From Rhodohalobacter sp. 614A (GTDB taxonomy: Bacteria > Bacteroidota > Rhodothermia > Balneolales > Balneolaceae), in assembly GCF_021462415.1 (NCBI RefSeq), contig NZ_JAKEDS010000003.1, positions 586,743-650,742 of the forward strand: a DNA stretch of 64,000 bases. Reading direction: 5' to 3'. The translations under genes and the position numbers were made by a program. The notes under the pieces were generated by a model. The model did no database searches. It had not been told where the DNA came from and saw only the letters and a list, made by a program, of their open reading frames with translations. Below, piece after piece: positions 17,257 through 20,180 of the stretch. Within the stretch, counting starts at the first letter, position 1. Each line of letters starts with the position of its first letter.

Positions 17257-18012
17257 TCAAATCATATAAGAACCACCATTGATGTGAAATGTCTGGCCGG
17301 ACATATGCGGAACATCTCCTTTGGAAAGGAATGCAACGAGATTGGCAACCTCTTTAGGGTCGGTAATTTCATCAAATGCCGAGCCTTGGGTGAGATATTC
17401 TTCTCCGTAAACTGAAACAGCTTCCAAGGCCATATCGGTGTCGATAAAACCGGGTGCAATGGAATAGGCGCTGATTCCCATTTTGCTAAAATTACGGGCG
17501 ATGCTTTTTGTAAAAGCAACCATTCCGGCTTTGGATGCTGCATAAGCTGCAAATTCCTGGGTATCACCGCGATAGGCCGCCCGGGAAGCGATATTGATGA
17601 GCACTCCTTTTGATTGATGATCTGTATGAATATTTACAAACCACTTGCTCAATAACGCTGTTGAACGAAGATTGACATCCAATGTTCGATCCCAAACCTC
17701 AAGCCATTTTTTATCATCATCTGAGAAATCCATATCTACTGAAATTCCTGCGTTATTAATAAGAACATCTATTCCGCCTGATTTTGAAAAAAGCGGCTTT
17801 AGCTGAAATTCAATATCGTTCTTACTCCCTAAATCAACGTGAATTCCATTAAAATTTTTATGGGATGAGAGTTCGTTTGGGAACTCCGATTTTCTTGCGG
17901 TACCCGTAACTCTAAATCCTTCTTTGAGCAGTTTCTTTGCAATCTCTAACCCAATTCCTCTTGATGCTCCGGTTACAATGGCGTGTTTTTGAGGAGTATT
18001 ATTCTTTGTCAT
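17257..18012 (-). CDS. SDR family NAD(P)-dependent oxidoreductase
   Basis: A classical short-chain dehydrogenase/reductase of 251 residues. The cofactor motif TGASRGIG lies near residue 15, NNAG near 87, and the catalytic Ser, Tyr and Lys at about 143, 157 and 161 (NIASRAAY, YAASKAG). Asp/Arg discrimination of NAD versus NADP cannot be made safely, though TARKSE after the second strand suggests NADP. The C-terminal SGQTFHINGGSYMI is typical of 3-oxoacyl-ACP reductase-like members. The ATG at 18012 follows an in-frame TTG. Confidence 0.92.
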   Translation of the reverse strand: MTKNNTPQKHAIVTGASRGIGLEIAKKLLKEGFRVTGTARKSEFPNELSSHKNFNGIHVDLGSKNDIEFQLKPLFSKSGGIDVLINNAGISVDMDFSDDDKKWLEVWDRTLDVNLRSTALLSKWFVNIHTDHQSKGVLINIASRAAYRGDTQEFAAYAASKAGMVAFTKSIARNFSKMGISAYSIAPGFIDTDMALEAVSVYGEEYLTQGSAFDEITDPKEVANLVAFLSKGDVPHMSGQTFHINGGSYMI

Positions 18013-18205
18013 CAAAGGAAGTTATCTGGCTTGAAGTTCATTCAGGTAAGTTTAATAGGGCATTATAATACAACTCTTTAGCGTTAGGATATGTTCGTAT
18101 TTTGATATTAATTCCGCTTAATTCATATTACTCTGATTATTTTAAGAGTAACATGAACAAAACTTACGTACGAAGCAAGGATAACATGAATAGTGTTGGT
18201 GATAT

Positions 18206-18220
18206 GCCAATGTTGGCAAA
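18206..18220. repeat. Left inverted repeat of the putative cassette
   Basis: Core TGTTGGCAAA at 18211-18220; with the preceding bases it forms a self-palindrome TGCCAA-TG-TTGGCA at 18205-18218. It lies 18 bases before the ATG of the esterase-like gene and is the inverted counterpart of 19466-19480, with one mismatch in 15. Confidence 0.7.
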
Positions 18221-18238
18221 CATTTAAAAAAAAACTGA

Positions 18239-19456
18239 ATGAACAAAATCTTAACTTTTTTAATTGCTCTAACTTTTTGCTCTTGTAATGCTCAAACCGA
18301 TTTCAATTCAACAATTGAATTTACTTCAGATTTAGAGAAGTTTGAAAACCTGTCAAAGTTGAAAGAATCCTTCAAAGGTGTGGAAATAATAGCAATTGGA
18401 GAAAATACGCACGGATTAGGAGAAGTATATAAAGCCAAAGCAGAATTGATTAAGTTCTTATATCAAGAATTAGGATTTGATTTAGTTCTTTTTGAATCAG
18501 GATTTGGTGATGCCGCATTAGCTTGGGAGCAAATGGACTCACTATCATCAAAAGAATATACGAACATTTTTAGCTCTAACTTTTACTACAATTCAGAAGA
18601 AATAGAAAATCTTGTAAGTTATGTGAAATCACAAAATGGAACATTAAAAATCCAAGGTTTTGATTGCCAACCACAACAAAATTATCTGATAAAACGAATG
18701 ACTGAAATTGTTGAACCTTTGGATTCCATATTTGCTAAATCTGTTTCATTAGAAATGAGAAGTTTTAATAATCTTTATCAATATGAAAATGACAAAGACA
18801 CATTAGCATTTATCAATCAACGAGACAGATTTATTGACTTCTTGGACAATTACAGCACATTTTTAAGTGAAAAAACAAACGAATTACTTAATTCGGGAGT
18901 TACAGAAAATGAAATAAGTGCTATAAAAAAATCGAATAAAATTTTTATTCAAACATATTCAAGAATCAATATCGGAGAAATAATGAGTTGGCCATTAGCG
19001 GATAACATAAGAGATAACTCAATGTTTAACACCGTTAAATCTTTCAAAGAAGAAAATCCTAAATCAAAAATTATTATTTGGGCTCAAAACAGCCATATTG
19101 AAAATAAAACAAAGCCGAATTACAATGTAGATTGGATGGGACATCATCTTAAAAAAGCCTTTGGCGATAAGTACTATTCAATTGGAACAGTTGTTTATAG
19201 TGGTAAAAACCTGAACTACAACGGAACGTTTGATTTTGAGCATAAAGACAGTACGTTTCTAGCTTATCATCTTAACAAATTTCAAAAAGAAAAATATATT
19301 TTGGACTTAAGAAAACATAACAAAAATGATTTTACCAAGAAGTTGCTATTAGGAATGGAAAATAATGGAAATACAGCTGACTTCATTGCAAAAGATAGAT
19401 TTGATGGTCTACTTTTTATTAATTACAGCGATATACCAAAGTTAATTCAAAAATAA
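18239..19456 (+). CDS. Erythromycin esterase-like lipoprotein
   Basis: A 405-residue member of the erythromycin esterase (EreA/EreB, succinoglycan biosynthesis) family. GENTHG at residues 54-59 supplies the Glu and His of the active site, LFESGFGD near 85-91 the next acidic residue, GFDCQP and the late WAQNSHI the remaining conserved positions. The N-terminus MNKILTFLIALTFCSC looks like a lipoprotein signal. Known family members hydrolyse macrolide lactones, but many chromosomal homologues have no known substrate, so resistance should not be assumed. The codon use is strongly AT-biased compared with neighbours, and the gene lies inside a bracketed cassette. Confidence 0.85.
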   Translation: MNKILTFLIALTFCSCNAQTDFNSTIEFTSDLEKFENLSKLKESFKGVEIIAIGENTHGLGEVYKAKAELIKFLYQELGFDLVLFESGFGDAALAWEQMDSLSSKEYTNIFSSNFYYNSEEIENLVSYVKSQNGTLKIQGFDCQPQQNYLIKRMTEIVEPLDSIFAKSVSLEMRSFNNLYQYENDKDTLAFINQRDRFIDFLDNYSTFLSEKTNELLNSGVTENEISAIKKSNKIFIQTYSRINIGEIMSWPLADNIRDNSMFNTVKSFKEENPKSKIIIWAQNSHIENKTKPNYNVDWMGHHLKKAFGDKYYSIGTVVYSGKNLNYNGTFDFEHKDSTFLAYHLNKFQKEKYILDLRKHNKNDFTKKLLLGMENNGNTADFIAKDRFDGLLFINYSDIPKLIQK

Positions 19457-19465
19457 TAAAAACGA

Positions 19466-19533
19466 TTTGCCAACAATGGCTATGAGTAGTTACGTGCTAA
19501 ACCACGCAACTACTCATAGCCGATACCGTTACT
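19466..19533. repeat. attC-like palindrome at right cassette end
   Basis: Arms of 19 bases, starting GGCTATGAGTAGTT at 19478-19496 and ending CTACTCATAGCC at 19503-19521, pair with one mismatch (a G-T wobble in RNA) around a 6-base loop. Outside them GCCAAC at 19469-19474 and CCGTTAC at 19526-19532 stand where the R'' and R' boxes of an attC site would be, though neither fits the classical consensus fully. It could also act as a two-way terminator between the convergent genes. Confidence 0.65.
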
Positions 19534-20038
19534 CTCTCTTCTTTCGATAAATCGGCACATTGGAGCAAGCTTCTCCGTACATCAACTTCTTTACAAGAGG
19601 AAGCAATTTTTTGGTAGCGTACATGTACACATCGGCGGGCACATCTATTTTACTGCATCCTTTCAGAAGTACAAACCGGTCTTCATATTTGGTCCAGTCA
19701 GTTTGGTCGATCTTTTGCCTGAAAATTTGGCTCATGGCTTCCTGCTTGTTTCCAAAAAGAACATCCATGGAGTGAGCCGCCGCATGCTGAACGACCAGCA
19801 TATAAGCCCATTTCGGAATAATGGCATCCGTTGAGCAGGTTACTGCCAGATAAGATCCCTCATACTGCTCCCAATTATGAGCTTCCATTTTTTCGCGGTA
19901 CTCAGACTCTTTTAAAATCAATTCCTGGAAAAGAAAATCTTTCAAGTCCAGTTCAAAGATCTGAACACCGGCTGCAAACTTTTCAAGATCAACCGTTTCA
20001 AGTTTGGATTGCTGAATTTTATTTACAATTTCTGACAT
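19529..20038 (-). CDS. DUF2480 family protein
   Basis: A 169-residue soluble protein of the DUF2480 family, which in Bacteroidota and relatives is often encoded beside Suf genes. Family blocks are FELDLKDFLFQELILKESEYR, ITPKWAY-like IIPKWAYMLVV and the C-terminal YGEACSNVPIYRKK with one conserved cysteine. The ATG at 20038 is chosen; the frame is open further upstream through a repeat-rich stretch that does not look coding. A role in Fe-S assembly is inferred only from position behind sufA. Its stop codon overlaps the right limit of the putative cassette. Confidence 0.85.
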   Translation of the reverse strand: MSEIVNKIQQSKLETVDLEKFAAGVQIFELDLKDFLFQELILKESEYREKMEAHNWEQYEGSYLAVTCSTDAIIPKWAYMLVVQHAAAHSMDVLFGNKQEAMSQIFRQKIDQTDWTKYEDRFVLLKGCSKIDVPADVYMYATKKLLPLVKKLMYGEACSNVPIYRKKRE

Positions 20039-20040
20039 GT

Positions 20041-20180
20041 GAGTAGTATTGAGTAGCGAGTACTGAGTATTGAGATTCTTTTCAGGAATTAGGAGAATTA
20101 AATGGTTGAGTAAATGCGGTTGATGTGTTTGTCTTTCTATCAATAAACCGTCTCACTACTCGATACTCAATACTTGCTAC
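20041..20180. repeat. TACTGAGTATTGAG-type repeat cluster
   Basis: Degenerate copies of the theme GAGTAxTxAGTATTGAG occur at 20041-20075, and inverted copies (CTACTCGATACTCAATACT) at about 20155-20175. The two groups can fold into an imperfect long hairpin. They fill the gap between sufA and DUF2480. Low-complexity repeats of this kind are scattered between genes in many Bacteroidota. Confidence 0.65.

Follow-up and report, generated by a model that had tools for sequence, protein, structure and literature searches.

A probable relic of a non-canonical integron with an esterase cassette in Rhodohalobacter sp. 614A

Canonical integrons combine an integrase gene (IntI), a recombination site attI at the 5' side of this divergent gene with a G|TT crossover, and arrays of single-gene cassettes whose attC sites show R''/R' complementarity and an imperfect stem. 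Going by the title of a 2001 paper by Messier and Roy, as cited in PMC2426708, the additional domain is reportedly needed for integron integrase activity. According to IntegronFinder 2 this extra domain distinguishes IntI; it is used for recognising integron integrases and regarded as needed for activity (PMC9024848), and an earlier integron survey retained only sequences containing it (PMC2426708). Few integrons in Bacteroidetes were reported by IntegronFinder 2, which by default requires two attC sites (PMC9024848). Our literature search, with preprints and most subscription journals outside its reach, returned no description of attI/attC systems with integrases lacking the additional domain.

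We investigated an esterase gene and its surroundings in a 64-kb stretch of the genome of Rhodohalobacter sp. 614A, referred to as the window. Since two attC sites are the default requirement of IntegronFinder 2, the single attC of the window would go unreported. The locus resembles a CALIN as defined by that program (PMC9024848) in having an attC and no intact integrase, but differs in that it retains an attI and an integrase remnant. We consider it very probable that positions 18037-19528 are the relic of a small integron, made up of a broken integrase gene, an attI and an esterase cassette with its attC, whose intact form is run by a XerA-like tyrosine recombinase of about 280 aa. The features are collected in Table 1.

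Table 1. Position of the cassette, the attI-like element and their neighbours in the window
Feature	Position	Strand	Evidence or remark
Short-chain dehydrogenase (SDR) gene, left flank	17257..18012	-	PF00106; adjoins DUF2480 in relatives
Possible whole insert (remnant, attI and cassette)	18022..19528	.	Inferred from relatives' spacers; left limit tentative
Decayed N-terminal remnant of the ~280-aa integrase, MN*AELISKYEHILTLK...	18037..18126	-	Weak alone, E 0.026; fixed position; clearer remnant at C4:36201
attI-like element, 134 bp, ending GCCAATG|TT	18079..18212	+	Dispersed family; fixed offset at 12 intact integrase loci
Cassette 5' core GTTGGCAAA (R' half)	18212..18220	+	Perfect complement of R''
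Gene cassette, 1316 bp	18213..19528	+	G18212|T18213 to G19528|T19529; R'/R'' complementarity; start and 3' box shared with relatives elsewhere, flanks not
Cassette gene, erythromycin-esterase-family protein, 405 aa	18239..19456	+	PF05139, 1.2e-28
attC site	19466..19530	+	R'' 19466-19474; stem 19478-19496/19503-19521; spacer 19522-19527; G19528|TT
DUF2480 gene, right flank; stop codon at cassette border	19529..20035	-	PF10652

The cassette starts at G18212|TTGGCAAA and ends with G19528|TT at the DUF2480 stop codon. The 3' attC box TTTGCCAAC is the exact complement (9/9 nt) of the cassette's own start GTTGGCAAA, and because the 5' core thus pairs with the R'' box at the 3' end, 18213-19528 has the anatomy of an attC cassette. 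In the L''/L' stem 18 of the 19 positions of each arm are paired, and the unpaired spacers are short (3 and 6 nt); with regard to extrahelical bases, the attC arm shows one mismatch and the unequal spacers, without a clear bulged base. Folded as a single strand the palindrome reached -19.3 kcal/mol versus -4.9 for shuffled sequences (z = -7.9; 0/200). With a custom attC scan the esterase attC was the sole site in the window, and 119 kb of shuffled sequence gave none. Elsewhere in the Rhodohalobacter sp. 614A genome a genome search yielded no further copies of the palindrome, and a loose GCCAAC...CGTTAGGC pattern had zero matches in this genome.

Most of the outline had been anticipated in the initial annotation. 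The erythromycin-esterase-like gene, the 19-nt-arm palindrome and the right limit at the stop codon of a DUF2480 gene are borne out by the domain matches and the folding, the proposed 15-nt inverted repeat matches at 14/15 positions (18206-18220 / 19466-19480), and the cassette is AT-rich as claimed, with 30% GC vs 43% in the rest of the window. Its left limit at 18084 had to be given up: since GTTGGCAAA perfectly complements TTTGCCAAC, the real limit is G18212|T18213, and 18084-18212 belongs to a separate repeat family. Position 18084 was rejected as cassette start, as it has no complementary 3' box. With the left limit moved, the suggested integron-cassette layout is stronger than originally claimed.

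Relatives of the esterase, most of them full-length and with 62-81% identity, were found in Marivirga, Sediminibacterium and other Bacteroidota. In several of them the start (TTGGCAAACATT or TTAGCAAACATT) and the 3' box (TTTGCCAAC or TTTGCTAAC) are conserved, with different flanks outside. Since start and 3' box are kept while the flanks and even the attC stem differ, the esterase gene moves as a cassette. When the homologous cassettes were compared (window 19466-19530; L041, L043-L045, L047), the gene ends and the R'' box were kept and the attC stems were entirely different, which looks as if attC sites had been exchanged under the same gene. In its 3' arm the window attC also resembles attC sites near the short integrases described below, with 95% identity in genome G284 and 93% in genome G088 over 43 nt. 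Because of this near-identity the window cassette appears to be part of a pool handled by these integrases. A strong hairpin between two converging genes might alternatively be a plain transcription terminator, the esterase being a chance insertion; we regard this as barely credible in view of the exact R''/R' complement, the G|TT limits, the homologous cassettes with the same 3' box and different stems, and the near-identical attC arms in cassette arrays.

We then turn to the insertion locus. An esterase present here in all close relatives, the case named in the initial annotation as speaking against a mobile cassette, was not found: in none of 24 same-genus DUF2480 loci was the gene nearby, and it occurs in cassette form elsewhere. 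The SDR gene was adjacent to DUF2480 in 13 of these 24 loci, and in several same-genus relatives the spacer between the two genes is only 6-12 nt. Judging by these spacers, excision of 18022-19528 would possibly leave the DUF2480 TAA, 9 nt and the SDR ATG. On the other side of DUF2480, the gap to HesB (window 20045-20180; L008, L013, L015, L022) holds short repeats of the type GAGTATTGAGTAGTGAGTA / CACTACTCGATACTCAATACT, whose form varies among several species.

A DNA search with 18013-18238 identified four more places in the Rhodohalobacter sp. 614A genome, giving five copies of the attI-like element in total, each followed by an accessory gene. Matches were present in 31 of 129 genomes of the order, and most copies end in ...CCAATG|TT or a near variant, after which sequence and genes differ. 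With a profile built from 31 copies, the element was located at all 12 intact loci of one clade of tyrosine recombinases of about 280 aa, always divergent, at the 5' end of the gene and at a fixed offset: 48 nt overlap the start of the integrase gene and the remainder reaches away from it. On account of this fixed divergent position in 12 intact loci, the 134-bp element behaves as an attI. The same profile search did not find it at the canonical IntI loci examined (L048-L097). Orphan copies often retain a stop-ridden N-terminus of the integrase gene, which at C4:36201 is recognisable with an E-value of 3e-8. The earlier statement that no integrase is present is correct for an intact gene, but 18037-18126 holds such a stop-ridden N-terminal remnant, which is short and by itself weak (E 0.026).

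The other copies in Rhodohalobacter sp. 614A carry different cargo. At C4:36201 it is a 436-aa protein with a GldB-like match; two tandem elements at about 2077.7-2079.5 kb of C1 (L107:7725-9536), alike in their upstream flanks and without recognisable attC, are followed by an unknown 208-aa protein and a Mrr-type restriction enzyme. The copy at about 1470-1472 kb of C1 (L108:3253-5463) precedes a 736-aa PrrC-like AAA protein with PADLOC PDC-S06 as best match (4e-271), and by this predicted cargo defence-type genes ride attI-like sites. A recognisable attC is not seen at every attI copy and is missing from 3 of the 5 copies in this genome; decay would explain these attC-less copies, without being proof of it.

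We also compared the short integrases with known recombinases. Against the integron-integrase model TIGR02249 they scored 200-212 bits, below the cut-off of 265, and the match consisted of two segments that leave out the middle. Their best NCBIfam model was NF040815 (XerA; cut-off 220) with 219-239 bits, the NCBI description of which includes 'integron integrase', and the best solved relative was XerA (5hxy). The interval from catalytic box I to HxxRH measured 92 residues in 11/11 short integrases of the attI clade versus 134 in 25/25 IntI, so that an insertion of about 42 residues found in every canonical IntI measured is lacking; in other short Bacteroidota integrases the interval was 91-99 residues. 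The catalytic Arg, HxxR, GH and Tyr are invariant in the short integrases. The tree separated IntI (100/100) from the short integrases with attI (100/99), each as a clade of its own. In length and domain make-up they are like the XerA, XerC and XerD recombinases, from which they differ in context, namely an attI with cassettes instead of a dif site. The hallmarks of canonical integrons, a divergent integrase with attI at its 5' side, the G|TT crossover and arrays of single-gene attC cassettes at attI, were found in the intact relatives, whereas of the integrase the window keeps a remnant only. In view of the missing IntI-specific insertion, scores below the IntI cut-off and a conserved 134-bp attI of its own, we regard the window system as a variant form of integron and not as a canonical member.

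Of the 29 distinct attI copies ending in G|TT, 10 have an exact 9-nt complement of their crossover sequence within 3 kb, including 7 of the 11 with an intact integrase; with cores swapped between copies the figure was 0.95% (p about 1e-13). This statistic counts the presence of a match and not its place, and the match listed for the window is an 8-mer that occurs by chance within the gene (+451), not the real R'' at 19466-19474. The strict attC scanner had 0 matches in the 119 kb of shuffled sequence, and at a slightly lower threshold the number of attC hits per 10 kb was 1.3 near short integrases, 1.0 near canonical IntI and 0.2 for the DUF2480 loci that served as controls. At L142 in genome G088 four consecutive cassettes all match their own R'' (8/8), as do most cassettes at L146 and L147. 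Seven attC sites adjoin the short integrase in G186, a genome that also has IntI. Five lie beside a more distant short integrase in G284, where the cassette start TTGGTGGC matches the R'' GCCACCAAC. The 'perhaps Bacteroidota-specific cassette mobiliser' of the initial annotation is supported by the intact relatives, in which a non-canonical integrase and attC cassettes accompany the attI-like element.

The main rival is that the esterase cassette was placed into a secondary G|TT site by a canonical IntI acting in trans, with the 134-bp stretch being a mere upstream region of an unrelated recombinase gene. Canonical integrases above the TIGR02249 cut-off occur in 64 of 129 genomes of the order, a genuine attC cassette like that of the esterase should be recognised by them, and since several genomes (e.g. 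G061, G063, G078, G091, G115) contain both a short integrase and IntI, cassettes there could be made by IntI. However, the conserved end of the 134-bp element is precisely the point at which the cassette is joined, as are different cassettes in many other copies. The rival is further weakened by the absence of the element from the canonical IntI loci examined and by cassettes adjoining short integrases in genomes without IntI above the cut-off: G088 and G064, 98-99% complete, have a short integrase and attI and no IntI above the cut-off, and none was found in G284. We therefore consider capture by IntI unlikely. As recombinases below the cut-off and without the IntI insertion nevertheless head attC arrays, some in genomes without canonical IntI, we read the window as a relic of a non-canonical Bacteroidota integron.

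In the Rhodohalobacter sp. 614A genome itself neither an intact short integrase nor an IntI above the TIGR02249 cut-off was found, so its five attI-like copies are probably immobile now. Five other tyrosine recombinases are encoded, and XerC/XerD or another of these host enzymes might be thought to move cassettes at dispersed sites. This is very improbable: in intact loci the element lies at the start codon of the integrase gene, and the copies in Rhodohalobacter sp. 614A keep remnants of that integrase. For the same reason the genome looks like a decayed state, and the window copy would have lost its integrase through decay after insertion.

In the intact form of the proposed non-canonical integron, the XerA-like integrase of about 280 aa would be transcribed away from attI, recognise the G|TT core that closes the 134-bp site and join attI to attC on a circular cassette, allowing genes to be captured one after another downstream of attI. 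By its genomic context the short integrase is the putative catalyst of this attI x attC recombination, presumably acting on folded single-stranded attC, and attI may drive expression of the cassettes. The intact loci with their short integrase suggest a gene-capture system missed by current searches. Beyond the window, we lean towards a large class of Bacteroidota integrons whose XerA-like integrases lack the additional domain of IntI, in which each lineage has its own attI and one cassette pool is used across distant families.

If such a class exists, attC recombination would not need the additional domain, and integron surveys requiring this domain have missed the class. Short-integrase integrons could account for part of the integron gap in Bacteroidetes and could reveal a route by which a major phylum captures genes, some of them of defence type. 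With attC arrays beside domain-less integrases, the evolution of attC recombination from Xer-type recombination becomes directly testable.

Further arrangements of these sites were observed in other genomes. At L158:3452-4650 and on the reverse strand of L173 an orphan attI-like element lies inside an apparent cassette, with the start G|TTATAGGGC and a matching R'' GCCCTATAAC downstream; other cassettes may therefore carry and spread attI. The start G|TTATAGGGC likewise precedes the attI-like element at L162 and L176. A near-identical attC of about 98 nt was seen in several genomes (L140, L143, L146, L147, L170), frequently with a short palindrome around CGCTCCGCTCTTC at its head and sometimes located directly behind attI, like a gene-less mini-cassette.
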